DNA of 64,000 bases, taken from the NCBI RefSeq assembly GCF_017901175.1, contig NZ_CP072793.1:62001-126000 (forward strand). The letters are read 5' to 3'. Below the pieces are notes generated by a model. The model was given only the letters and a program-made list of their open reading frames with translations. It made no database searches and was not told where the DNA came from. The DNA comes from Thiothrix unzii (lineage in GTDB: Bacteria > Pseudomonadota > Gammaproteobacteria > Thiotrichales > Thiotrichaceae). Made by a program: the position numbers and the translations under genes. Below, piece by piece: positions 19,627 to 35,914 of this stretch. The stretch's first letter is position 1, and each line of letters opens with the position of its first letter.

Positions 19627-22281
19627 ATGCTTGTTTCTGATGCCATTTTTTCAGCCAGCCCCTATCTGCAACACCAGCTTGCCCGCCACCCTGAATGGCA
19701 AGCCTACCTAGAAACGAGCCAGCCGTATGCCAATGGTGAATTGGTGCAAAACATCGCGGCTGAAGTGCTTACACTCCCCGATTACGACAGCCTATTGCGC
19801 ACGGTGCGCATCATCCGTAACCGCGAAATGGTGCGCATCGCCTACCGCGATTTGCTAGGCAAAGCAGAACTCGCCGAAACCTTGCAAACCACTTCCGACC
19901 TCGCCGATGGTTTGGTGGACGCAGTTTACCGCTGGTGTTACGCCGAACTCACCGCCAAACACGGCATCCCGCGCAGCCGCAGCGGTGAGCCCCAGCAGAT
20001 GGTGATTATCGGCATGGGCAAACTCGGTGGGCAGGAACTCAACTTTTCCTCTGACATCGACATGATTTTCGCCTTCCCCGAAGCAGGCGCAACCGATGGC
20101 AAGCGCGATCTCGATAACCAAACGTTTTTCACCCGTGTGGGACAACGCTTGATTGGGGTGTTGGGGCAAACCACGGCGGAGGGCATTGTGTACCGCGTCG
20201 ATATGCGCTTACGCCCCTTCGGTGAAGTCGGCGCACTTGCGTTGTCGTTCGATGCGATGGAGCATTACTACGAAACCCACGGGCGCGAATGGGAACGTTA
20301 CGCCCTGATCAAGGCGCGGGTGATGGCGGGCGACAAACACAATGGCGCGGAATTGATGGCACGCTTCCGCCCGTTTGTGTTCCGCCGCTACCTCGATTAT
20401 GGCGCGATTGAGCAATTGCGCGATATGAAAGCCATGATCAACCGCGAAGCCGAACGCCGTGGCAAATATTTGGATGTGAAGCTCGGCACTGGCGGTATCC
20501 GCGAAATCGAATTCACCGCGCAAGTGTTCCAACTGATGCGCGGCGGGCGGATTCCCGAATTGCGGGGGCGTAGTTTGCTGCCGACGCTGGATGCCTTACT
20601 GGCGCAACAATTGCTGACGGCGGACGAGTTTGGGATTTTACGCAGCGCGTACCATTTCCTGCGCCGCACGGAAAATCGCCTGCAAATGTGGAACGACGAA
20701 CAGACGCATTCGCTGCCAACCACGTCTGAACGCCAAGCCTGTCTCTCCAGCTCGATGGGCTTTGCGGATTGGGCGAGTTTTGAGGCAGAACTCAATCGTC
20801 ATCAGCGTGCGGTATCGCAGATTTTCCAGAGGGTGTTTGCACTCGAAACCCAAGAGAGTCAGCCGATGCCGGAACATCCCGCGATTCAGGCATTGCTGCA
20901 CAGCCGTTTGTATAACACGTTGACCGATACGGGGCGCAGTCGTTTGAACCGCTTGCTGCCTGCGTTGCTGGATGCGTGTAATGCTTTGGCTGACCCTGAA
21001 CAGGCGTTGGAACGGTGTTTGCGGATTGTGCAAAAGATTGCGCCGCGTTCCGGTTACATTGCCATGCTGGCGGATCACCCGAATGCGTTGGAACAATTTG
21101 TGCGCTTGGTTAGTGATAGCTTGTGGATTACCAGCCAGTTGACCGATCACCCGATTTTGCTGGATCAATTGCTGGATTCGCGCCAGTTGTATACGCCGTT
21201 GGATCGTGAGCAACTGGGGGCGGCATTGCGCTTGGAATTGGAGCGTATTGATCAGGGCGACACCGAACAGGTGATGGAACGGTTGCGCCAATTCAAGCAA
21301 GCACAAGTGTTGCGGGTAGCGGCGGCGGACATTACCGGCATATTGCCGCTGATGAAGGTCTCGGATCAGTTGACATGGATTGCCGAGGCGGTGTTGGAAG
21401 AAACCCAGCGGCATGTGTGGGTGACGATGACGGCGCAAACGGGCGTGCCGTGTTACAAGAATGATGCGGGAGAAACGCAACAAGCGGGGTTTGCGATTAT
21501 TGCTTACGGCAAACTGGGCGGGCTGGAACTCGGTTATGGGTCGGATCTCGACATTATTTTCTTACACGACAGCCACGGCACGGCGCAGCAGACCAATGGC
21601 AAAAAGACGCTGGAAAATGCGGTGTTTTATGCACGATTTGCGCAGAAAATTATTCATACGCTGACGACGTTTACGCCAGCGGGACGCTTGTACGAAACCG
21701 ATACGCGCTTGCGCCCTAGTGGGGCTTCGGGTTTGCTGGTCAGCAGTTTGAATGCGTTTTGCACTTACCAGCAGGAAAAGGCGTGGGTGTGGGAACATCA
21801 AGCCTTGCTGCGGGCGCGGGTGATTACGGGAACGGAGCGTTTGCGGTCGCAGTTTGAGCAAGTACGCCATGACATCCTTTGTCAGCCGCGTGATAGGGCG
21901 GAGTTGCGCAAGCAGGTGATTGCGATGCGCCAGAAAATGTGGGAAAGCATGGCGAGTAAGGATTCCAGTATTTTTAACCTGAAAAAAGACCCCGGTGGCG
22001 TGACAGATATTGAATTTATTGTGCAGTTTCTGATTCTGGCTCATGCGCACGAACACCCGGAATTGGTGCGCTGGAGCGACAATATCCGCCAATTAGAATC
22101 GTTGCAGGGGGCGGGAATTTTGCCAGCAGATACGGCGGTGATGTTGGCGGATGCTTACCGGACGTTGCGTGATCGTATCCACGAGCTGTCGTTGCAGGAG
22201 CAGGACGCGGTAGTGGAGGCGGGGCAGTTTGTGCGTGAGCGTGAGGCGGTGCGGGCTGCTTGGGTTACTTACCTTGGCTAA
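19627..22281 (+). CDS. glnE: Bifunctional glutamine synthetase adenylyltransferase/deadenylase
   Basis: An 884-residue protein that adenylylates and deadenylylates glutamine synthetase in response to PII and glutamine. The two nucleotidyltransferase domains are each marked: GMGKLGGQELNFSSDIDMIF in the N-terminal (deadenylylating) half and AYGKLGGLELGYGSDLDIIF in the C-terminal (adenylylating) half. Each is followed by a helical GlnD-type domain (RDMKAMINREAERR; KKDPGGVTDIEFIVQF). It is slightly shorter than the E. coli enzyme. The Met at 19627 is chosen because an upstream in-frame ATG overlaps the -10 element. The gene's last 17 bp overlap the end of the BLUF gene on the other strand. Confidence 0.95.
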   Translation: MLVSDAIFSASPYLQHQLARHPEWQAYLETSQPYANGELVQNIAAEVLTLPDYDSLLRTVRIIRNREMVRIAYRDLLGKAELAETLQTTSDLADGLVDAVYRWCYAELTAKHGIPRSRSGEPQQMVIIGMGKLGGQELNFSSDIDMIFAFPEAGATDGKRDLDNQTFFTRVGQRLIGVLGQTTAEGIVYRVDMRLRPFGEVGALALSFDAMEHYYETHGREWERYALIKARVMAGDKHNGAELMARFRPFVFRRYLDYGAIEQLRDMKAMINREAERRGKYLDVKLGTGGIREIEFTAQVFQLMRGGRIPELRGRSLLPTLDALLAQQLLTADEFGILRSAYHFLRRTENRLQMWNDEQTHSLPTTSERQACLSSSMGFADWASFEAELNRHQRAVSQIFQRVFALETQESQPMPEHPAIQALLHSRLYNTLTDTGRSRLNRLLPALLDACNALADPEQALERCLRIVQKIAPRSGYIAMLADHPNALEQFVRLVSDSLWITSQLTDHPILLDQLLDSRQLYTPLDREQLGAALRLELERIDQGDTEQVMERLRQFKQAQVLRVAAADITGILPLMKVSDQLTWIAEAVLEETQRHVWVTMTAQTGVPCYKNDAGETQQAGFAIIAYGKLGGLELGYGSDLDIIFLHDSHGTAQQTNGKKTLENAVFYARFAQKIIHTLTTFTPAGRLYETDTRLRPSGASGLLVSSLNAFCTYQQEKAWVWEHQALLRARVITGTERLRSQFEQVRHDILCQPRDRAELRKQVIAMRQKMWESMASKDSSIFNLKKDPGGVTDIEFIVQFLILAHAHEHPELVRWSDNIRQLESLQGAGILPADTAVMLADAYRTLRDRIHELSLQEQDAVVEAGQFVREREAVRAAWVTYLG

Positions 22282-22705
22282 TGCCGTGGCGGTCGGCGAT
22301 TTTATCGACCAGTTGCCAGACTCGCGCTTCCAACATGCTGTAGCGGCTGGTGTGCGCAGTTTTTAGTAGTAAAAAACTGTGCAAGATGTGCTCCAGTCGA
22401 ATATTTACTAACGAGCCTTGTTTCAGCCACTGCATATGCCATGTCGGAAAACGGCGTGTTTCCAAGTCATTATCCATCACCAGGCGCTTGATGGTGTGGC
22501 GCGTGTCACGCTCAATACGCCCGATTAACAGGTCAATAGCCCACGCTTCACCTTCGATGTATTGCATGAAACGCCCGTTGTCGAAATACAAATAACCCGT
22601 GACCCCGGATTCAGCATTACGCGCGGCGGCATCTGTAGCAAGTTGGGCAAGGTCATTTTCACTAAAATCAATGCACGCAAAACTGGCGTAAACTAGGCAT
22701 TTCAT
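22265..22705 (-). CDS. BLUF-domain blue-light sensor
   Basis: A 146-residue protein made of a single BLUF domain, which binds FAD and senses blue light. The key residues are present: Tyr6 (LVYAS), Asn30 (ARNAESGVTG), Gln48 (GRFMQYIEG) and Trp89/Met91 (FPTWHMQW). No output domain is attached, so it must signal by contact with another protein, as in short BLUF proteins such as PixD. No obvious partner is adjacent. It is convergent with glnE, overlapping it by 17 bp. Confidence 0.93.
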   Translation of the reverse strand: MKCLVYASFACIDFSENDLAQLATDAAARNAESGVTGYLYFDNGRFMQYIEGEAWAIDLLIGRIERDTRHTIKRLVMDNDLETRRFPTWHMQWLKQGSLVNIRLEHILHSFLLLKTAHTSRYSMLEARVWQLVDKIADRHGISQGK

Positions 22706-22765: not shown

Positions 22766-23467
22766 TTATGCCGCAATCCGGTCGTACAACTGCTGCGCAC
22801 CTTCCGCCACAATCCGCTGCGCCCAACTTGGCTTCATTTTCATATCCGCTGCCCGTTCCAGATACAGTGCAGGTCGTGTCAGCATATCTGCCAACGATTT
22901 CAACAATGCTTTGCGGGGAACACTGCCGTATTGTCGCTCGGCTTCTTGCCATGCAGCTTGCGGGATTTCACCCCATGCCAGATACATCGCCACCAAATCG
23001 AAGACATCCTTGAACGGTGGGGCAAGCGCACGGTCAGCATTCGCCAACAGCTTGGTCATGAAACAGGATTCGCGTGACAAGTAGGGCAGCGGAAACAAGT
23101 TCAGATCAGCACCTGCGCCCAGTCGGTATTCATCACAACTGACGATTTCGAGTTTGACCAGTGAATCATCCAGCTTGAGAAACGTTCTGACAGCGTAACG
23201 GTCGGCGCGAATTTCGCGCACATAATCAAACTCTTGCCTGACCAATGCGCCGAGGGAAAGATTCGTCACCTGTTCACGCACAGCACGGTAGGCATCCTTG
23301 TTTGGACACAGCAAATCAATATCAACCGATTCGCGGTATTCGTCCAGTTCCAAGGCAATGCGTGTCCCGCCACCGAAACAAATGGCATGTTGGGTAAAGA
23401 AATCAGCATCGAACTGCGCCAATGCGGTCATGATCAGGCGGTGATGGGGCAGTTGGTAATCAGGCAT
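22766..23467 (-). CDS. AbiEii/AbiGii-type nucleotidyltransferase (putative toxin)
   Basis: A 233-residue nucleotidyltransferase with the DNA-polymerase-beta-like signature GGGTRIAL, then YRESVDIDLLCP with the two metal-binding Asp near residue 55, and a C-terminal helical region (FKDVFDLVAMYLAWGEIP). Family members include toxins of abortive-infection type IV toxin-antitoxin systems (AbiE, MenT). The start is set at the Met (MPDYQL) that overlaps the upstream small gene by 8 bp. That upstream partner has no visible resemblance to AbiEi, so the system is assigned only as AbiEii-like. Confidence 0.85.
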   Translation of the reverse strand: MPDYQLPHHRLIMTALAQFDADFFTQHAICFGGGTRIALELDEYRESVDIDLLCPNKDAYRAVREQVTNLSLGALVRQEFDYVREIRADRYAVRTFLKLDDSLVKLEIVSCDEYRLGAGADLNLFPLPYLSRESCFMTKLLANADRALAPPFKDVFDLVAMYLAWGEIPQAAWQEAERQYGSVPRKALLKSLADMLTRPALYLERAADMKMKPSWAQRIVAEGAQQLYDRIAA

Positions 23468-23690
23468 GATGCACCACCCCAAACGCTGGAATGAAAATGC
23501 CTTGCCCCACTGTGCGAGTGAGTTCCTTGATTAGACCTTGCTCGTTGTCGCTTAGATTCTGTGCTTGCACGAAGCCCCAACGTTCTTCATACACGCGGAA
23601 AGCAAAGTCAGGATCGACGGTTTCGCAATGGACATCCCATAGCAGCTTGTCCAGTTCCGGGTAGAGCTTACGGTTGATGGTGGTTGGCAT
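23460..23690 (-). CDS. Small partner protein of the nucleotidyltransferase
   Basis: A 76-residue soluble protein (MPTTINRKLYPELDKLLWDV...) that I do not recognise. It is encoded just before, and overlaps by 8 bp, the AbiEii-like nucleotidyltransferase, which suggests co-translation and a function as antitoxin or cofactor. It has no HTH or other motif that I can identify. It is divergent from the UPF0175 gene at 23879. Confidence 0.7.
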   Translation of the reverse strand: MPTTINRKLYPELDKLLWDVHCETVDPDFAFRVYEERWGFVQAQNLSDNEQGLIKELTRTVGQGIFIPAFGVVHHA

Positions 23691-23878: not shown

Positions 23879-24142
23879 ATGCAATTGACGCTCGATATTC
23901 CAGAAAAATTCTTTGCTTATCAAACACCCAAAGAGCTGATACGCCTACTCAAACTGAATACGGCGATTGACCTTTATCGACGCGGCAAACTGTCGGCGGG
24001 TGCTGCGGCTGAATTTGTTGGCGACCTTGACCGCTACGAATTTCTCTACGAATGCCGCCAACGCGGGATTGAGCCACAAACCTACGACAATGTTGAAGAG
24101 CTGCAAGCAGAAATCGACATGCTGGCAAAGGATTTGGCGTGA
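23879..24142 (+). CDS. UPF0175 family antitoxin
   Basis: An 87-residue protein with the UPF0175 pattern: LKLNTAIDLYRRGKLSAGAAAEFVGDLDRYEFLYECRQRGI, a helix-turn-helix-like region near residues 30-60. The family is regularly found before DUF3368 PIN proteins and acts as the antitoxin. The gene overlaps the next by 4 bp (GTGA). Confidence 0.88.
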   Translation: MQLTLDIPEKFFAYQTPKELIRLLKLNTAIDLYRRGKLSAGAAAEFVGDLDRYEFLYECRQRGIEPQTYDNVEELQAEIDMLAKDLA

Positions 24143-24612
24143 TTATTATTGCGGATAGCTCGCCTTTAGTCGCTTTGGCACTGTGCGATTGCTTGGACGT
24201 TTTGGATGCACTCTTTGGCGAAGTCCGAGTGTCACAGACTGTTTATGAAGAAGTTACCGTCGGGAATAAAGCTGGCTCAGCCAAACTTGCTCATTATTTA
24301 CAAGGCAAAGTAAAAGAATCGTGCCTTGATTTGCACATTATTGGTGGCGACACAGTCGACAAGGGTGAGTTAACCTCTATTGTATTGTATAAAAACCTTA
24401 ATGCTGATTATCTGTTGATTGACGAGAAAGCAGGGCGAAAAGTCGCACAAATCAACCAAGTCAAAATCATTGGCAGTCTCGGCGTTTTGATTGAAGCCAA
24501 GCGCAAAGGCATGATTCCTTTACTAAATCCTTATATTGAAATTTTGCGCAACTCCAAAACCTATTTTGGCGAAGAGTTATTAAATTACGCACTGACTGTT
24601 GTGGGCGAATAA
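24139..24612 (+). CDS. DUF3368 PIN-like toxin
   Basis: A 157-residue PIN-fold protein of the DUF3368 type. IIADSSPLVALALCDCLDVL holds the first Asp, VSQTVYEEV the conserved Glu, DKGELTSIVL a further acid and YLLIDEKAGRKVA the last. The likely start is the GTG at 24139 that overlaps the UPF0175 stop. By family it is the ribonuclease toxin of the pair. The A/T content rises from here toward 30 kb, consistent with acquired DNA. Confidence 0.87.
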   Translation: MIIIADSSPLVALALCDCLDVLDALFGEVRVSQTVYEEVTVGNKAGSAKLAHYLQGKVKESCLDLHIIGGDTVDKGELTSIVLYKNLNADYLLIDEKAGRKVAQINQVKIIGSLGVLIEAKRKGMIPLLNPYIEILRNSKTYFGEELLNYALTVVGE

Positions 24613-24661
24613 TGCTTTAAATGCTTTGTCACGCCACTTAAAATAACAAAATGTGTAATTG

Positions 24662-27393
24662 TTAATTTAAATTAGGCTCATTACATCCAATCATATCAGC
24701 TATCCAAAGGTATTTCAAAAAGCCAACAGAAGTAAGACTTATATGTAATCTATCACGCCAAGATGCTATTTGTTCTAGTGTTAATGATGCTGTGTTTTGA
24801 AAGTTCTCTATAGGATATAGCGCAGTACTTATCTCTAAAATCAAATTCAGGCAAAGAAATATATTTGGTCTTGTTTCAGATAGCAAGGTGAGATCTTGAT
24901 CCGAGAAATAATTAGTTAACTCAGCCATTGAGTCAAAAGTTTTTTGAGCGTGCGAGTTTATAGCCACTTCTTCATCTTCTAAATAATTACGTAGCACATC
25001 TGTGCCAACATCGTCCATGCCTTGAATTTGCTTATTAAAATTAGATAAATAATCAATATGCTCAAATAGCTCCCCATAAGAGTTGACAAAAGAATCAATA
25101 AGATCTGTCTTACCCAGATATGCCCACTGCCTAATTCCAAGTGCATCCAAAACATCCGAGCTAATAGGCTCAGGAAATAAACGCCAACGTTGGCTGCTTA
25201 TAACATCAATATCATATTCCATAACTCCCTTGAAATTAGTATAAGCTAATCTTTCCAAGCTTTTTCCTTTGACTAGCGGGATCAGTATTATATGTTGCCA
25301 ATAGAGATCCATTGCTTTGATTCTAACAATTTTGTCTTGGTCTATATTTAATGCACTTGCTATTGCTTGCCATAAAGCATCCAATGCATTTAAAGAGTCA
25401 ATTGGATGTTCAACATCGAAAGTGATCCATAATGCATTATTTCCTTTCCAGTAAATATTATCCGCATGAATTTTGGCATGAATACCTCGTTTTTTTAATA
25501 GTTTTAATGAGGAATTAAGACGATTGGATGTAGGGATTAAACAATCACTTAGCATTCCTTTTGTTAATTTTCTTTTGGTTTTCTGGAGCTTTCCTTCCAT
25601 GAGTGGAAACTGTTCTGGATATGCAGCTCTACACCATTTGTATATAGTTTCAATCCATGCTTCATATTCTTCTTTTGGTGATAAAAAGTCTAGCGACTGG
25701 GGATTTGTCAAGACCTCCTCTTGTTGGTGAAGTTTTTTTAGCATTATACATGCATCAATTCCATTGCATACTGATAAATGAATATCATGTTTGTTGATAC
25801 CCTCTTTTTCAGCTAAAGCATAAAGCTCTTCAACTTGATCTTTTGCTTTTGCAGATGGCATAAGAACCATGAGAATAAGGGCTTTTTCAGCCGACCTTAC
25901 GAAATCACCAACCCTATGCCTATATTCATTAAGTGCCACTTTAAAATCAGACAAACGTTTGCTGGCTAAAAATCTTTGGCTATTTCTTAAATTCGAGGTT
26001 TCTTTAGCTTGACTTTCAGTTATCATTCCCCATTCGTCAAGAGCAGATTTTGGCAACAAAAAATTATCCGTTGTTAATCGTCTAAAGCTATTCCACTCCT
26101 TCATATCGGTTATAAATTGTATATCTTTTGAACCAATATCATGTAAAGCAATGCCGATTTGTTTTAGTGAATAAACTGTATCTCTACGCAGTTTATATAT
26201 TTGGGAAAAGTACTCACTCCATTCTTTCGGGCGAGCTTGATAGTCTACTAATCCCTGAAACCAAGAATTAAAAATAGGCAACCAAGGTTTCAGAATGTTT
26301 TCAATAGGCATTCGCTTTACTGTGTCATCATAAGGCAATTCCAGCAGAGATGTTTTATTCCCATATCCCGATGATCCATACTTATTGAAGTTTGGTATAC
26401 ACCAAGCGATTGTTTCAACCCTTTCTACTGAAAGATCATTATAAGTAACAAGTGTATCAGGCTTCGATCTTGACAATCCCATGCCAGACATTCTATTGTT
26501 TTGCCTAATTATATAGTGTGCAACCAAACAGTCATCTTCTTGATCTAACGCAAATATTCCTTCTTTTTCTTGGATATGTTTTTTCAACTTTTCTTTATTT
26601 AAATCAAACCAAGAAGAATATAAATTCTCATTAAATGTACGAGTGGCAATAGCAAGCCGAGCAAAAGAATAAACAGGTAGAATAGTTAATGCTGCATCCA
26701 AATCATCGTTGGCAATTAACTCATAATCGACTTTTAAATTAATATGTCCAAGCCAAAATATAATTTCTGCAAATGCATCAAATTCAAGAATTGACTGTGG
26801 ATTTCTAGGAAAATAAAGCAAGCTTCCGAGAAAATCAGAAAAATAATTAAATATATCCATTTTATTTGTTTGTTTTTCTTTTAATGCCATTGCTGCTTGA
26901 GCAGCTATTGCAAAGTTAGGATTTGATGCTGCCAATGGTGCAAATAAATCATTTTTTACTTTTAATGCATTTGCTATATCAAAATCTATTAACATCCACC
27001 ATGCCTGTCCTACAAGAGTACGCGCATCACTCAAAACTTCCGCATTAACCAAAGCATACTCTTTGAGTCCAAGCCATTGCAAAGATCTACCAACACCTCT
27101 TACCGCCTCCCATGTTGTTAAGGAAAGAGAAGATAACGCTGATATTAATTCTTTTGAATCATGATAGTGGCGTGAGAATGTACATAGTAAAAAGAACTCA
27201 AGATCATTTTCTTCTAGAATTGATAAAACCTGTTTTGCTAAGCTGGGCCAAGGATAAAAAACCTCATCTAATAACTGGGAGCATATAATTTCGCTGCGTA
27301 CTGAGTGAAAACCTTCAACATAATGACCATCAATAGATGTTCGCAATAAAAATTCGTTATTAAAGCGTTGTAATGTCCGTTGGGGTTCTGCTA
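24662..27393 (-). pseudogene. C-terminal two-thirds of an IS-interrupted nuclease-STAND gene
   Basis: About 909 residues continuing in frame from the fragment at 28499-29968 once the IS630-type element (27394-28498) and one TA duplicate are removed. The join restores LVNLCDI followed by AEPQRTLQRF. No domain is recognised in this part; it is helical and rich in short repeats of hydrophobic residues, as expected for the sensor arm of a STAND protein. The IS end now supplies an ATG (27454) in frame, so a fragment with 21 foreign N-terminal residues could still be made. Base composition is much more A/T-rich than the surrounding chromosome. Confidence 0.85.
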
Positions 27394-28498
27394 AGTAACT
27401 AGCTAGAAGTTTCCACGTATAAGATCCTGCTGGTGTAAACTGGTAGTTTGTCACTTAAGAATGTCCGCACCGATGAAATTTGCCCAGCCGATCCCTGAAG
27501 AAATCCGCGTGACCTTGCAGGAAATGTATATGAACCACCCTACATTCCGCTGTCGTCAACGTGCGCAAGCAATTTTGTTGAGTACACGCGGCTTTACCCT
27601 TGCGGAACTGTGGTCAATCTTGGATGTACGGCGCGATGCCATCAGTGAGTGGCTCGACCGCTGGGAACATGAAGGGCTGCTGGGACTTTACGACCGTCCC
27701 CGCTCTGGTTGCCCCCGGATATACACAGAAGCTGAAGTAGCGTTGTTGAAAACCCTAGTGGACGAAGAGCCACGCCAAATCAAGACGGCTCAAACCAAAC
27801 TGGCTGATCTAACCCAGAAAGTAGCCAGTACCAGCACCTTGAAACGCCTGTTAAAAAAAAGTTCCACTACCTCTGGAAGCGGATGCGTAACTCATTGAAA
27901 GATAAACGTGACCCCGTGGCTTTCAAGCGTGAGCAGGAAATTCAAGCATTACTCCACCAGCAAGCGGCGGCTGGCAAGTTGCTTATTTACTACTTCGATG
28001 GTTCAGGTTTTACCACAACTCCTTGCGTCCCTTACGGGTGGCAGAAACGGGGGAAACACGCAGGCTACTCACAGCTCAGAGCAAACGCTTGAATGTCTTG
28101 GGTTTTATGAGCCTAGACAACGATAGTTTTTTCCACACGGTGGAAGGGCGCGTTGACTCACAAGCTGCCATCGCCGCCTTTAGTGCCTTTGCTGACCGTT
28201 ATGCCGAAGAATTTGCACAAACAAAAATACCTTGCTTGGTTATTCTGGATAACGCCCCGATACAAACCAGCAAAGCCTTTCTTGGTAAACGTGAAGATTG
28301 GATGTTGGCGGGAATTTGCTTACATTTTTTGCCAACCTACAGCCCTGAACTCAATCCTATCGAAATACTCTGGCGAAAAATCAAATATGAATGGTTGCCG
28401 CTGGATGCCTATAAAAGCTACAAGGACATGAAGGAACTGGTGTTAGCTATACTGGCTGGCTTCGGCGAAAAATACACGATAACTTTTGGATAATTACT
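27394..28498 (+). mobile_element. IS630-family element, copy A
   Basis: A 1105-bp element flanked by TA duplicates (27392-27393 and 28499-28500), as expected for this family. Terminal inverted repeats begin AGTAACTAGC on the left and AGTAATTATC on the right. The boundaries were set by comparison with copy B and by the restored reading frame of the host gene. One base difference from copy B was noticed (Ser/Asn codon in the transposase). Confidence 0.92.
27461..28493 (+). pseudogene. IS630-family transposase in three frames
   Basis: The N-terminal HTH part (145 codons from 27461, MSAPMKFAQPIPEEIRVTLQ) leaves frame at a run of eight A (27853-27860). A -1 shift there gives KKFHYLWKRMRNSLKDK, which continues to DGSGF and PYGWQKRG. 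A second -1 shift at five G (28049-28053) gives ETRRLLTAQSKRLNVLGF, with the second catalytic Asp in VILDNAPIQ and the Glu in LNPIEILWRK. Frameshifting at a poly-A run is known in this family, but the second shift suggests a lost G and a non-functional transposase. Confidence 0.85.
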
Positions 28499-29968
28499 TA
28501 TATCGCAAAGATTTACAAGATCAATTAACCGAATTCGTGCCTCATATGCTGATGCCACAGCTACCAGACGTAAGAGCTTCAATTCATTACAAGTTAATTT
28601 ACCTTCATTTACTTCATCTTGCAATGCAGAAACTTGCTGTTTTATTTTAAATGTTAAGCTTTGATTTTGTGTTAAAAGATAAACAAATTCAAACAGTGTT
28701 TTTCGCTCTCCTAGCTGTTTCCAAGCATCATCAAAATCCAAATAATGCGTGACTTTATATTTTTCATTAAGTGAGCCAAACAACAGCATTGCCGTATTTT
28801 CATCAAACTGTGGCTGTATATCTGCAAAGAAGAAATCATCAATAGTTATTCTTGAGAGAAACCAGTCTTCTTCTCGAATAGTGATAAGAACTTGTATGCC
28901 TGAAATACCTGATACTTCTCTTACGAATTCTTTCCAGGCATTATCACCGGGGCGTACATCTAAATAAATAAAAGTTGGAACTTGCAATGACTCATAATGC
29001 CCAGCCAAAGCTATTGCCATACGTCTTGCATGAATAGTATCAGAAGGTCTTAGAATCTCAAAGCAGAACTCAGCAGCACAAAACTCTAACAAATAACGAT
29101 AGGCTAATGTAGTTTTACCTTGCCCTGATGCAGCATGAACCACTACTACATTATTTTTGAGGAAAGCATTATTAATCTCAGCCAGCACCTGATTTCTAGG
29201 AATATCAAGATTAGCGGCAATATGTTCAAATCTTACGCGCCCTCCTTGGAAGAATTCACGTTCTAAGATTTCCGTGCTTTGATGTGGCGTTAATAATGAA
29301 ATAGGCAGAATAGAAACATTCCATTCACTTATATGAGAATTTCTTTGAGCTAAGAACTTGCCTATGTTATTGAGTCGCTCAATAACAGCCTTCCTAGTGA
29401 TTTCTGTCCTTTTTTCTGATGCAGTAAATAACCACCACATGAAATTATCAAAAGCTTGTTGTGGTTGTCCTGCTGCTACAGACTTTCTCAATTTAGAAAA
29501 AACAATCTCAGTTAATTTCTCATCTTCAAGTTGAACATATTGGATATGATTGAGAATTTGTGAAGCTTGAGTATCTGATAAAGTTTCACCTTTAACGGTT
29601 TTTAATGTGCGCTTAGGTATGTTGGATGACGTATCTAAAGCCATTGCTAATTCACTACCAATAGCCCCAAAAGATGCCAACGTTACTTTAACCTTAGATG
29701 TTGGTTGGCAATATTGAGCAATCCGTTCATAGAAAAAAGATGTAAAATCAGATGCAACTAATGGACTGGAATAATCTTTTACCTGTACAACTTCTAGCAA
29801 CACACCTGAGGCATCAAAGATCGCTAAATCCTCAATGCCTTCTGGTTGCAGAATATAGTTTTCTGGCAAGCCATCTTCAAAAAGACGAAATAAACAATAA
29901 AGTGCTTGGCGACGATAACCACGATAGGTAAGTAACTGAGCCAAAGTTTTCGTGTATTCCTGATTCAT
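28499..29968 (-). pseudogene. N-terminal part of an IS-interrupted nuclease-STAND gene
   Basis: 490 residues of the original protein remain, followed by 26 residues read from the IS. Residues 1-200 look like a DUF4297/Mrr-like PD-(D/E)XK nuclease, with Asp47 (EGIEDLAIF) and Gln62-Val-Lys64 (EVVQVKDY). A P-loop ATPase follows: Walker A AASGQGKTTL near 277-285, Walker B VPTFIYLDVRPG near 334 and a VLITIREEDW strand near 361. The intact protein would have been about 1399 residues. The order nuclease, STAND ATPase, long helical tail is that of Avs-type antiphage proteins (an inference by architecture). The start is the ATG at 29968. Confidence 0.87.
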
Positions 29969-30171
29969 AACTCATTGAGTTTCAAAGGGGGTAATGTGCG
30001 AAAACTTAGTACTAGTTACTTAGCAGAAGGATCATCCACTTTTTGCATACGTTTATGTCCTAATATCGGTAGCTAGGATGGCGAATTTTCCGCCTTGCTT
30101 GTGTTCTCACAAGGATAACATGAAACTACGCGCATCCGAGCCTACCCACAACAACTACAATTCCTCTTATA

Positions 30172-31276
30172 AGTAATTATCCAAAAGTTATCGTGTATTT
30201 TTCGCCAAAGCCAGCCAGTATAGCTAACACCAGTTCCTTCATGTCCTTGTAGCTTTTATAGGCATCCAGCGGCAACCATTCATATTTGATTTTTCGCCAG
30301 AGTATTTCGATAGGATTGAGTTCAGGGCTGTAGGTTGGCAAAAAATGTAAGCAAATTCCCGCCAACATCCAATCTTCACGTTTACCAAGAAAGGCTTTGC
30401 TGGTTTGTATCGGGGCGTTATCCAGAATAACCAAGCAAGGTATTTTTGTTTGTGCAAATTCTTCGGCATAACGGTCAGCAAAGGCATTAAAGGCGGCGAT
30501 GGCAGCTTGTGAGTCAACGCGCCCTTCCACCGTGTGGAAAAAACTATCGTTGTCTAGGCTCATAAAACCCAAGACATTCAAGCGTTTGCTCTGAGCTGTG
30601 AGTAGCCTGCGTGTTTCCCCCGTTTCTGCCACCCGTAAGGGACGCAAGGAGTTGTGGTAAAACCTGAACCATCGAAGTAGTAAATAAGCAACTTGCCAGC
30701 CGCCGCTTGCTGGTGGAGTAATGCTTGAATTTCCTGCTCACGCTTGAAAGCCACGGGGTCACGTTTATCTTTCAATGAGTTACGCATCCGCTTCCAGAGG
30801 TAGTGGAACTTTTTTTTAACAGGCGTTTCAAGGTGCTGGTACTGGCTACTTTCTGGGTTAGATCAGCCAGTTTGGTTTGAGCCGTCTTGATTTGGCGTGG
30901 CTCTTCGTCCACTAGGGTTTTCAACAACGCTACTTCAGCTTCTGTGTATATCCGGGGGCAACCAGAGCGGGGACGGTCGTAAAGTCCCAGCAGCCCTTCA
31001 TGTTCCCAGCGGTCGAGCCACTCACTGATGGCATCGCGCCGTACATCCAAGATTGACCACAGTTCCGCAAGGGTAAAGCCGCGTGTACTCAACAAAATTG
31101 CTTGCGCACGTTGACGACAGCGGAATGTAGGGTGGTTCATATACATTTCCTGCAAGGTCACGCGGATTTCTTCAGGGATCGGCTGGGCAAATTTCATCGG
31201 TGCGGACATTCTTAAGTGACAAACTACCAGTTTACACCAGCAGGATCTTATACGTGGAAACTTCTAGCTAGTTACT
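30172..31276 (-). mobile_element. IS630-family element, copy B
   Basis: A 1105-bp element, inverse to copy A and almost identical to it, with TA duplicates at 30170-30171 and 31277-31278. It sits exactly at the end of dld: the TAA stop of dld is made of the target TA plus the first A of the element, and the same stop would have existed before insertion (TA followed by A in the left flank). Confidence 0.92.
30177..31209 (-). pseudogene. IS630-family transposase, copy B, in three frames
   Basis: Same structure and the same two frame breaks as copy A: poly-A run at 30810-30817 and five G at 30617-30621 (minus-strand sense). The shared second break shows it arose before the two insertions separated, or that the element is moved by a transposase supplied elsewhere. 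It differs from copy A by one residue noticed (AFNAFADRY instead of AFSAFADRY). Confidence 0.85.
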
Positions 31277-32955
31277 TACTTCTCCATCTTCCCAATCCCC
31301 GGATTAAACGTATTGGTCGGATCAAGCCGCTTATAAAACTCCCGCAAGCCGCTTTCCGCCTGATACAAATGCCCGACATTATGCTCCGCCGGATATTTCG
31401 CCCCCCGCGCATCCAGCAACGCCAGCATCGCCTTTTTCACCGCATGGGCATCCGCACCCTTTTTCAAAATATAATCCTGATGGAAAACGTGGCACATAAA
31501 ATGCCCGTAATACAGCGTATGTTCAATCTGGCTGCGAATGTGTTCCGGCAACACTTCCACCCAATCCGCATCATTGCGCCGCAACGCAATGTCCAACGCC
31601 AACATTTCCTCGCCGACCTGATCACTGAACAAGGTCTGGTAACGGATCGCCGCGCCCGCCGCCGCAAACCGCTGCAAGAACGCCTTACTCGCCTCCTGCG
31701 GCGTACACTCAAAATACGCGCCCGCATTACCCGCATCCGCAAAGAATTCCGGCAAAAACGCCTGCGCCTCGGCAATCCCGCCCTCACTCATTTTCAGAAT
31801 CAAGTGATGCTCATAACGGTCACGGAATTCCAGCAAACGGTCAGGTAAATGCTGCGGAAACAAACTACTGACGCCCTGCATCACCCGATCACTCAAATAT
31901 TTGGGCAGCAACGGCAACTTATTCAAAGTCGCATCGGTACGCCCCTTAATCGCAAACAACTTCGGCATCACATCCGTCCCCAACTTTTCAATCGTCAGGA
32001 AGGTATCTTTGCCGTACTTTTCCGCAATATTAAAAATATCGCGGTGCATGTATTCGCCCACTTCCGGCACATTTTCAAACTGGCTGAGGATGTGGCGACG
32101 CAAGCGCGTCAACACCTGCGGATCATTCGTGCCGATGTAAAACGCTTGCTCCTGCTGCACCATCGGAAACGTATCCAGTCGCACCGCAAACACCGCCAAT
32201 TTCCCCGCGCACCCACTGGCTTCAAACAAACGGCTTTCATCGGCATTGAAACGCGCCGGTGTTGCCGCATCCACATCGCGCAACCGCGCCACGTAGTCGC
32301 GAGCCGATGCCAGCTTGCCGCCATCATCCACCCCGTCTTTGGCAAAATTGCCAGACTCCAGCCGTGTAATCATCTCCTCTGGCGAATCGCCCAAGGCAAT
32401 CCCCAAATGGTTAACCATTTCGAGCTTGCCCTGTTCATTCACCTGCGCAAACAACGCCATTTCGGTGTAAGCCGGGCCGCGTTTGACCAAGGCTCCGCCC
32501 GAATTATTCGCCACGCCGCCGACAATCGACGCGCCCAAACAGGACGAGCCGATCACCGAATGCGGCGCACGTTTTAACGGCTTGAGCAATTTTTCCAGCT
32601 TGTGCAAAGTCGCACCGGGAAAACTCAACACCTGTTCACCGCCATTCAACAGCACCAAATCGTCCATCGCCAAGGTATTGATCACCACCACTTCACGGTC
32701 GTAATCGTCCCCGCTGGGGGTCGAGCCTTCCGTCAAGCCGGTTTTCGCCGCCTGCATAATGATAATGGTGTTCGCATCCACACAAGCTTGCAGCACGTGC
32801 CACAGTTGCATGAGGGTTTGCGGAAACACCACCGCCAATGCCGTGCCACTGCCCGAACGAAAGCCGGTACGGTAATACTCAGTACGGCGTTGCCCAGTCG
32901 TCAGCTTATCCGCGCCCACAATACCTTGCAGGGTGGTGATCAGGGGATGGTTCAT
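31276..32955 (-). CDS. dld: Quinone-dependent D-lactate dehydrogenase
   Basis: A 559-residue FAD enzyme of the E. coli Dld type that oxidises D-lactate to pyruvate at the inner membrane and passes electrons to quinone. The FAD-binding domain (FPQTLMQLWHVLQACVDANT, MQAAKTGLTEGSTPSG, GSSCLGASIVGGVANNSGG) occupies the first 200 residues. The cap and membrane-binding parts follow (YHVGHLYQ-type motif seen as YPAEHNVGHLYQAESGLREFYKRLDPTNTFNPGIGKM at the C-terminus). It lies 9 bp after lldP in the same direction. The IS copy B begins at its stop codon without altering the protein. Confidence 0.95.
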   Translation of the reverse strand: MNHPLITTLQGIVGADKLTTGQRRTEYYRTGFRSGSGTALAVVFPQTLMQLWHVLQACVDANTIIIMQAAKTGLTEGSTPSGDDYDREVVVINTLAMDDLVLLNGGEQVLSFPGATLHKLEKLLKPLKRAPHSVIGSSCLGASIVGGVANNSGGALVKRGPAYTEMALFAQVNEQGKLEMVNHLGIALGDSPEEMITRLESGNFAKDGVDDGGKLASARDYVARLRDVDAATPARFNADESRLFEASGCAGKLAVFAVRLDTFPMVQQEQAFYIGTNDPQVLTRLRRHILSQFENVPEVGEYMHRDIFNIAEKYGKDTFLTIEKLGTDVMPKLFAIKGRTDATLNKLPLLPKYLSDRVMQGVSSLFPQHLPDRLLEFRDRYEHHLILKMSEGGIAEAQAFLPEFFADAGNAGAYFECTPQEASKAFLQRFAAAGAAIRYQTLFSDQVGEEMLALDIALRRNDADWVEVLPEHIRSQIEHTLYYGHFMCHVFHQDYILKKGADAHAVKKAMLALLDARGAKYPAEHNVGHLYQAESGLREFYKRLDPTNTFNPGIGKMEK

Positions 32956-34806: not shown

Positions 34807-35914
34807 CTGATGTTACGCAGTCCGACCTCTCCTCGACTATATTTCAGGTATGAATCAAACACGTCTTGACCTCTACACCGACTACCTGACCGTGACCTTT
34901 GGCTACGCCACAGCAACGGGTTTATCCCAATTATTGGACGGCGAAATTAGCCACGATGCGATCAGTCGTTTTCTTTCGGGAGATGAGTACACCTCGAAAG
35001 ACCTGTGGAAACAGGTAAAAAAGACCGTCAGGGAGGTCGAATCAGCCGATGGCATCCTGATCATCGACGATACGGTGCAAGAAAAGCCCTACATGGACGA
35101 AAACGATCTAATTTGTTGGCATTACGACCACTGCAAAGGGCGTAATATCAAGGGAATCAACTTGTTAAACTGTCTATATCATAGCAATGGTGCATCCATT
35201 CCTGTTGCATTTGAACTGATACGGAAACCGTTCCGTTTCTGTGACATCAATACACGCCAAGAAAAGCGGTGCAGCGATGTCACCAAAAATGAGCAAATGC
35301 GCTCCATGATTGACACCTGCATTCAAAACCAACTGACATTTTCATGGGTGTTGAGCGACATTTGGTTCGCCTCCGCCGAGAATATGGAACACATCAAGGA
35401 GAAACGGCAAAAGGACTTCATTATGGCATTGAAAAGTAACCGATTAGTGGCATTGAGCGAAGTAGACAGCAAGGCAAAACGTTACACACGACTCGACCAA
35501 TTGGTATGGACAGAACAAAAAGCCATCAAGGGCTGGTTGAAGGGGCTAACCTTCCCCGTCAAGCTCGCCCGGCAAGTCTTTACGAACAAAGACGGCAGCA
35601 GCGGCATTTTGTATCTGGTCTGTAGCCGCTTGGCAGCAGAGTGGGACGAAATCACGACAACCTACCAAAAACGGTGGAAAGTCGAGGTCTTCCATAAATC
35701 GCTCAAATCCAATGCTGCCTTTGCGAAATCCCCTGCCCACACCGCTAAAACACAAGCGAATCACTTATTCGCCTCCATCGTCGCCGTCTTCAAAATGGAG
35801 TGTTTGACCATCAGCAAGCATCTTAACCACTTTGCCTTGCGTTCAAAGCTCTACGCCAAGGCAATTCGGGGCGCTTTTGATGAGCTACAGGTGCTTAGGG
35901 CTGCGTAACATCAG
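34807..35914 (+). mobile_element. IS4-superfamily insertion sequence between lldP and lldR
   Basis: About 1108 bp with perfect 14-bp terminal inverted repeats (CTGATGTTACGCAG at 34807-34820 and its complement at 35901-35914). It is flanked by 7-bp target duplicates TTATGAT (34800-34806 and 35915-35921). It holds one transposase gene. It has split the lldP-lldR control region; without it the two genes would be roughly 190 bp apart. Confidence 0.88.
34850..35908 (+). CDS. DDE transposase, IS4/IS701-like
   Basis: An apparently intact 352-residue transposase. The catalytic acids are visible in GILIIDDTVQEKPY (first Asp, near residue 70), FSWVLSDIWFAS (second Asp, near 168) and QKRWKVEVFHKSLK (Glu, near 280, the YREK-like region of IS4 relatives). 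The N-terminal part (SHDAISRFLSG) resembles a DNA-binding helix. The exact IS family cannot be fixed without a database; IS701 is the best guess. Confidence 0.85.
   Translation: MNQTRLDLYTDYLTVTFGYATATGLSQLLDGEISHDAISRFLSGDEYTSKDLWKQVKKTVREVESADGILIIDDTVQEKPYMDENDLICWHYDHCKGRNIKGINLLNCLYHSNGASIPVAFELIRKPFRFCDINTRQEKRCSDVTKNEQMRSMIDTCIQNQLTFSWVLSDIWFASAENMEHIKEKRQKDFIMALKSNRLVALSEVDSKAKRYTRLDQLVWTEQKAIKGWLKGLTFPVKLARQVFTNKDGSSGILYLVCSRLAAEWDEITTTYQKRWKVEVFHKSLKSNAAFAKSPAHTAKTQANHLFASIVAVFKMECLTISKHLNHFALRSKLYAKAIRGAFDELQVLRAA

Follow-up and report, generated by a model that had tools for sequence, protein, structure and literature searches.

The interrupted gene and its reconstruction

The 64,000-nucleotide stretch of Thiothrix unzii DNA analysed here, referred to throughout as the window, carries a split gene of about 1,399 codons on its minus strand, running from 29968 to 24662 as two long open frames that flank a transposase-bearing element. 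The first piece (28501..29968, minus strand, 489 codons) encodes an N-terminal nuclease, a linker and a STAND NTPase, and its open frame continues into the element as far as a stop at 28418. The second piece (24662..27391, minus strand, 909 residues) completes the NTPase module and continues into a long tail that belongs to no recognised family. The gene is probably a broken member of an unnamed family of one-gene nuclease-STAND antiviral receptors acting by abortive infection.

The two pieces were searched separately, without assembling the restored protein. Twelve homologues were compared. In the eight closest (L010, L016, L017, L019-L022 and L026), the match to the first piece stops at residue 476-487 and that to the second sets in at residue 487-493; in the Pseudanabaena protein, residues 8-484 are covered by the first piece and residues 489 to the end by the second. 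The tail alignment spans at least 800 residues in nine of the 12 homologues, 515 in L022, 145 in L025 and 79 in L012, and neither gene piece contains an inner stop. Homologue lengths are 1,397 residues for the Pseudanabaena plasmid protein, 1,398 for Deinococcus aquaticus and 1,400 for L017, within an overall range of 1,306-1,432 for the 12 (with chosen starts). These lengths and the colinear junction bear out the size given in a preliminary description of this DNA, which had read the two frames as one gene of about 1,399 codons cut by an IS630 element. The intact orthologues on which that reading depended do exist, and the two pieces align end to end with them, colinear across the junction.

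The inserted IS630-type element

The element within the gene (27394..28498, plus strand, 1,105 bp) is flanked by TA target copies at 27392..27393 on the left and 28499..28500 on the right, and lies between the NTPase and the tail. IS630 elements (Tc1/mariner-like) are characterised by a DDE transposase, TA target duplication and terminal inverted repeats. The transposase is encoded in two open frames on the plus strand, with Pfam matches to helix-turn-helix domains in the frame at 27461-27898 and to DDE_3 in the frame at 28023-28493. A second copy (30172..31276, minus strand) is located about 200 bp before the split gene's start; it is oriented opposite to the in-gene copy and directly adjoins the D-lactate dehydrogenase gene at its stop codon.

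Element ends were set by comparing the two window copies with each other and by comparing all 12 full-length copies that the genome carries, of which the window contributes two. In total, 14 matches were found, comprising these 12 full-length copies and one copy in two parts. Eleven full copies are exactly 1,105 bp long and 99.8-100% identical to the in-gene copy (itself included), and the twelfth is 1,106 bp. TA flanks both sides of all 12, which excludes chance as the source of the flanking dinucleotides, and the inverted ends are similar. The element is of IS630 type and has spread recently in this genome; a plasmid search with it returned zero matches. With 25 kb of the window as query, the one match was a 58-base piece within the D-lactate dehydrogenase gene, present in two Neisseria gonorrhoeae records. 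In both window copies the transposase is divided between two open frames (27461-28493, plus strand), with a run of A near the break, and frameshifting is a possibility.

The nuclease and NTPase modules

The nuclease core comprises residues 10-110 (29639..29941, minus strand). Residues Q21, E43, D47, Q62 and K64 (window numbering) are invariant in all 18 aligned nuclease rows, and E46, E59 and V63 are kept in 17. Ten of the rows came from a motif-based scan; seven others (L011, L012, L014 and L060-L063) were found without it and also retain the five invariant residues. Searched against the PDB, the 18-row profile matched LmuA of Lamassu (9ux7) with an expectation value (E) of 1.5e-5 and a DUF4297 nuclease (9c1m) at 2.1e-5, the invariant residues lining up with both, and a second DUF4297 at 0.11; a narrower profile built from 11 closer rows of the whole first half reached LmuA at E 0.14 only. 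Pfam Cap4_nuclease (PF14130) matches 10 of the 18 members at E 0.1, the window's own row giving no match at that threshold. PADLOC LmuA profiles match L011, L012 and L014 over the nuclease region only, with no match in the Pseudanabaena protein or the window pieces. With both the E-D and QxK pattern and a profile match present, the head is identified as a PD-(D/E)XK nuclease of the Cap4/DUF4297/LmuA type, in agreement with the PD-(D/E)XK-like nuclease with Asp47 and QVK at 62-64 described earlier.

The STAND NTPase core follows at residues 236-380 (28829..29263, minus strand). The first piece matches nSTAND_NTPase5 at E 2e-6 and 28.2 bits, below the curated cut-off of 34, which is passed by relatives L060 and L063; the nSTAND3 cut-off is passed in P0001, L058, L061 and L063. 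The P-loop SGQGK at 281-285, together with R365 and D368, is invariant in 11 of 11 rows. The P-loop ATPase of the preliminary description therefore stands, and, judged from the P-loop and a STAND profile match (relatives over the cut-off, the window's piece under it), the module is a STAND NTPase. The AlphaFold model of the first piece (mean predicted local distance difference test score, pLDDT, 80.7; 11 sequences) shows both a nuclease and a STAND fold, so that the outcome which the preliminary description would have taken as a refutation, a prediction with neither fold, did not occur. Its first-ranked fold match is EfAvs5 (E 5.7e-7), followed by Avs4 with portal (2.6e-6) and Cap4 (7.6e-6).

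The C-terminal tail

The tail, which the preliminary description had not recognised either, found no meaningful match in any library used. The window's tail piece matches no Pfam or PADLOC family and contains no Pfam repeat family, and NCBIfam gave only weak matches far below cut-offs. A 10-row tail profile found nothing better than E 0.88 by sequence in the PDB, and a comparison of the first half with the tail using hhalign revealed no relation. The tail model opens with a run of paired helices; alpha/beta stretches lie near 279-362 and near 638-719, the model also contains long helices, and its end is again helical. It has no fold match at E 0.001 in the PDB or the viral library.

The tail is less conserved than the nuclease and the NTPase. 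Mean pairwise identity amounts to 45% for the nuclease core, 28% for the linker that follows and 43% and 41% for the two NTPase blocks, and then falls from 34% to 20% along 100-residue blocks of the tail. The tail is also the less conserved part in close pairs, with 77% identity over the first half and 58% over the tail for L016 and L017, and 87% and 78% for L019 and L020. Such variability would fit a sensor under selective pressure, and relaxed constraint would look alike. In the tail tree, 8 of 14 inner branches are open, and row L018, which stands there in a wrong frame with 64 stops, is to be disregarded; the tree is used only to show that the window's row is without close kin (best identity 26%).

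An alternative places the family as a divergent branch of the Avs2-Avs4 nuclease receptors, its tail being an eroded TPR array that senses terminase or portal. The same part order and effector kind, the second rank of Avs4 among first-half fold matches and the run of paired helices that opens the tail model are in its favour. However, no Avs model is among the PADLOC matches of the pieces (E 1) or of four relatives (E 0.1), searching the PDB by sequence at E 10 with the tail and first-half profiles brought up no chain named Avs, no Avs chain is among the 50 fold matches listed of 205 for the tail, and the tail model also holds the two alpha/beta stretches and long helices; we consider this origin unlikely. 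The preferred reading remains a separate, unnamed family.

Distribution and integrity of relatives

A nuclease-pattern scan of 84,980 species genomes yielded 11 loci encoding relatives out of 116 candidate stretches, distributed patchily over cyanobacteria, Desulfobulbaceae, Geobacteraceae, Verrucomicrobia, Arcobacter, Planctomycetaceae, Eisenbacteria and Prevotella. The tail profile finds matches in 5 of the 386 genomes scanned for the phylum of Pseudanabaena and in 4 of the 398 for that of the window (starting genomes included); rows used to build profile A3 match A3 by construction. As a single sequence, the tail hit one genome among 95 relatives and one among 369 from the class, each time the window's own, and the first piece hit one of 16 genus genomes, again only its own. 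Among 72,556 plasmid records the tail matches two and the first piece eight; in 50,697 phage records there is no match to the tail and a single one to the first piece, in an unannotated faecal contig.

Twenty-one tail-bearing places were recorded, comprising 15 open copies, five broken or fragmentary ones and one (L024) divided between two contigs. All open copies carry nuclease, NTPase and tail (L010, L011, L016, L017, L019-L023, L025, L026 and L060-L063). In two of them, L021 and L062, the uninterrupted frame reaches a contig end; L010 and L016 share 99.6% identity, and the tail profile matches L060 only in part. L026 was counted as open since two listings show one open frame through the nuclease, the NTPase and nearly all of the tail, against one listing with two stops inside the match. 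The broken or fragmentary five comprise the window copy, the G1142 copy, L058, L018, which carries a frameshift and comes from a draft metagenome assembly, and L053, perhaps a remnant, of about 50 residues. Left uncounted were L012 (Hymenobacter, distant, tail barely similar) and L013, L014 and L015, which the tail search did not return.

Because the 11 scan loci were found via nuclease patterns, the presence of the nuclease in them follows in part from the way they were selected. Nine places were reached by searching with the tail (L010, L011, L058, L059, L060-L063 and L053), and seven of these possess the nuclease; that of L059 lies on another contig, L058 is without one, and L053 is too short to tell. 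Uninterrupted members occur in the named strains Desulfogranum japonicum DSM 18378, Pseudanabaena sp. ABRG5-3 and Deinococcus aquaticus PB-314.

Other disrupted copies and a possible effector exchange

In G1142, the first 307 profile positions end one contig (L074), and positions 302-485 and the tail start another (L059). The first 125 bases of L059 have 14 matches in G1142, eight at 95-100% and six at 86-88%, and both contig ends recur in repeat copy L070, where they span about 990 bp between their outer limits. A transposase-like frame adjoins repeat copy L075, whose other end was not seen as far as the sequence was fetched, and a 7-base word abuts the break on both sides (by eye). We read this as a second insertion into the NTPase part, by a roughly 1-kb element that differs from the one in the window, with the contig gap between. 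Downstream of the broken copy (L059, 4652-7889), thymidylate-synthase-like and recombinase-like genes occur that resemble those of gamma-mobile-trio elements. On a Sphingopyxis plasmid, L014 (7332-11656) contains a distant 632-codon nuclease-STAND relative with IS21 genes about 107 bp later, perhaps another truncation. PMC10359306 reports that insertion sequences (IS) have naturally inserted into cas genes and have also transposed into other defence systems of the host; the silencing of a defence gene by an IS thus has a precedent.

Whether these interruptions carry information about the gene can be weighed from the same data. That the window's disruption is a chance hit of an IS burst, uninformative on the gene, has in our judgement slightly better than even chances, given that the genome carries the element in 12 full and nearly identical copies, one of them about 200 bp from the gene's start. 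Against a chance hit, a different, roughly 1-kb element interrupts the gene in G1142, and 5 of 21 tail-bearing places are broken or fragmentary, a ratio of small numbers counted for this gene alone.

L058 (6299-10303, in a genome of the Pseudanabaena phylum) is a frame without the nuclease and with two in-frame TGA codons. A 133-codon gene precedes the NTPase in the same frame with a TGA between them, and the second TGA indicates that the copy may be decaying. Relatives of the small gene occur on cyanobacterial plasmids, in two of four cases examined directly before a gene annotated as a TPR protein. These frames hint that the receptor head, the effector, might be exchangeable. PMC8195603 uses the names nSTAND1 and nSTAND2 and gives a list of effectors that can be exchanged in such systems; neither DUF4297 nor Cap4 turned up when its main text was searched for these terms.

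Gene neighbourhoods

Fifteen neighbourhoods were compared all against all (open frames of at least 70 codons, E 1e-8; some regions end at contig ends). Only the nuclease-STAND gene is common to unrelated loci, apart from one weak pair between L018 and L025 (28% over 139 residues); two nearly identical Pseudanabaena regions also share genes. In the absence of a conserved neighbour, the gene looks like a one-gene system. Twelve different neighbours were scanned in two libraries, and a NACHT-NCAB2 protein was detected directly before the gene in L019 (NACHT itself below the cut-off), a SMEK-domain gene near it in L022, a helicase and a methyltransferase in L016 and an AlbA/Schlafen-type gene in L026. 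Such neighbours would be compatible with defence islands.

Similar nucleases raise the alternative that the receptor guards against plasmids or DNA damage instead of phages, like other DUF4297-type nuclease systems. The same nuclease family operates in Lamassu and HerA-DUF4297 systems, and several homologues are plasmid-borne; yet a tail of this size and variability points to a protein ligand that changes, as it does for Avs, and there is no conserved partner gene. A plasmid or damage guard is thus rather improbable, and a phage-directed receptor is retained as the preferred function.

In the window itself, a toxin-antitoxin-like pair of UPF0175 and DUF3368 genes (23879..24612, plus strand, guanine-plus-cytosine (GC) content 0.443) lies directly after the split gene's end, as context and not as part of the system. 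An AbiEii-type nucleotidyltransferase gene (22766-23482, minus strand, Pfam E 8.2e-18) adjoins a BLUF photoreceptor gene (22265-22705), and a further transposase gene (DDE_5/DDE_Tnp_1, 34850-35908, plus strand) is located between a lactate permease and a GntR/FCD regulator.

Origin and state in Thiothrix unzii

GC content is 0.364 in the first piece and 0.348 in the second, against 0.531 for the window without 23879-31300 and 0.476-0.583 in 171 overlapping 2.7-kb stretches of the rest of the window. At third positions it is about 0.25 in the pieces versus 0.65-0.66 for glnE and dld. The split gene was not found in the other 15 genomes of the genus. This absence supports transfer and strengthens the origin that had been proposed earlier from the A/T-rich composition. 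An insertion between two genus-wide neighbour genes was considered and rejected, glnE and dld lying at least 66 kb apart in seven other genomes (G001, G002, G003, G006, G008, G010 and G015, each with both genes on one contig); owing to this separation, an empty version of the locus could not be demonstrated.

The gene is most likely off in Thiothrix unzii, because the nuclease and switch are severed from the tail and a promoter scan of the tail piece gave nothing above chance (5 sites versus 6.1 expected), the nearest site on the tail strand lying about 445 bp before the GTG at 27454. Continued function as a split protein, with the head expressed from the original promoter and the tail from a new in-frame start supplied by the element, appears very unlikely. 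A 930-codon open frame does run from GTG 27454 inside the element into the tail, and both pieces are free of inner stops. The promoter scan at chance level, the inclusion of the tail in one long frame in all 15 open copies and the foreign end that the first piece acquires from the element speak against it. We therefore keep to a copy that has most likely been switched off.

Assessment and proposed mechanism

Several observations weigh against an antiviral receptor family as read here. The template modelling (TM) scores of the first piece, normalised by query length, are low (Avs5 0.33, Avs4 0.34, Cap4 0.24), and the majority of the 50 fold matches listed are other AAA-type ATPases, so that the fold match by itself is not specific. 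The window's own piece falls below the Pfam cut-offs, and several identifications rest on relatives. The tail model is middling (mean pLDDT 73.5, 10 sequences), which makes its lack of a fold match weak evidence, and the nuclease-NTPase linker at 28% is as variable as the tail, so low conservation is not special to the latter. A scan of IMG/VR viral contigs gave 98 pattern hits and zero relatives. Several scanned neighbours are not defence genes (recombinase, ion channel, MauJ-type, DUF6880, or matchless), and we know of no phage assay of any family member. An antiviral receptor family nonetheless appears the probable reading on balance.

Following the literature on Avs and other STAND proteins, the tail would bind a molecule made during infection, and binding would free the NTPase, allowing the protein to assemble into an oligomer. 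The oligomer would gather the Cap4-like nuclease heads, DNA would be cut, and this cutting would end the infection, probably at the cost of the cell. In Thiothrix unzii, a foreign, AT-rich copy of the gene was cut between NTPase and tail by a recently multiplied IS630 element and most likely switched off. We propose tentatively, at somewhat less than even odds, that the tail is a new pathogen-sensing module unlike the TPR-type sensors of Avs and triggered by a phage product outside the set of known triggers, and that the receptor is costly to carry and repeatedly silenced by IS elements.

Few bacterial STAND receptors have a known trigger. Given a conserved nuclease and switch, an unrecognised tail and uninterrupted members in named strains, the question of the tail's ligand is directly approachable in this family. 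The window gene is probably dead, yet uninterrupted relatives in several distant phyla can be tested against phages, and the broken copies offer a handle on the cost of carrying such receptors.

Comparison with known systems

In the library searched, no paper on this nuclease-STAND-tail family came up under its Pfam or protein accessions or its likely names; among the papers listed for STAND together with DUF4297 or Cap4, none describes the family by title or abstract, and no paper there uses the accession PF25199. The nSTAND_NTPase5 and nSTAND3 families (Pfam PF25199 and PF20720) represent the same NTPase type, with relatives reaching the curated cut-offs; they are domain families and not systems, and nSTAND3 is also named for Avs5 in PMC12931631.

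The Cap4/DUF4297/LmuA nucleases of CBASS Cap4, HerA-DUF4297 and Lamassu share the nuclease domain, with the same E-D and QxK positions. In these systems the nuclease is partnered by SAVED in Cap4, by HerA, or by the SMC-like LmuB, whose gene stands alongside that of LmuA in Lamassu. The split-gene family differs in having the nuclease fused to a STAND NTPase and a tail. Lamassu membership finds no support in the 15 neighbourhoods, which contain no conserved partner gene, although no SMC profile was searched as such.

The closest likeness is to Avs1-Avs5 (AVAST), especially Avs4 and Avs5, which have the same N-terminal effector, central STAND NTPase and large C-terminal region in one large gene. 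PADLOC, which we take to hold Avs models, returned no Avs match for the window pieces at E up to 1 or for four relatives at E up to 0.1, in a search run without a positive control. The Avs-type resemblance put forward in the preliminary description accordingly holds for architecture (effector, NTPase, long tail) and not for membership, there being no Avs profile among the PADLOC matches. A difference from Avs lies in the tail, to which no solved Avs chain corresponds by sequence; nor does one appear among the 50 listed of its 205 fold matches. According to PMC12931631, Avs proteins combine effector, NTPase and sensor, terminase, portal or another phage protein activates the Avs1-4 nucleases and the cell dies, and the C-terminal repeats of Avs5 are of TPR, Sel1 or PPR type. 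The tripartite build outlined there (effector, STAND NTPase and C-terminal region) is present in the family, the tail presumably taking the sensing role. Membership in Avs1-5 is not supported by the profiles searched, and the family most likely works in the manner of Avs.

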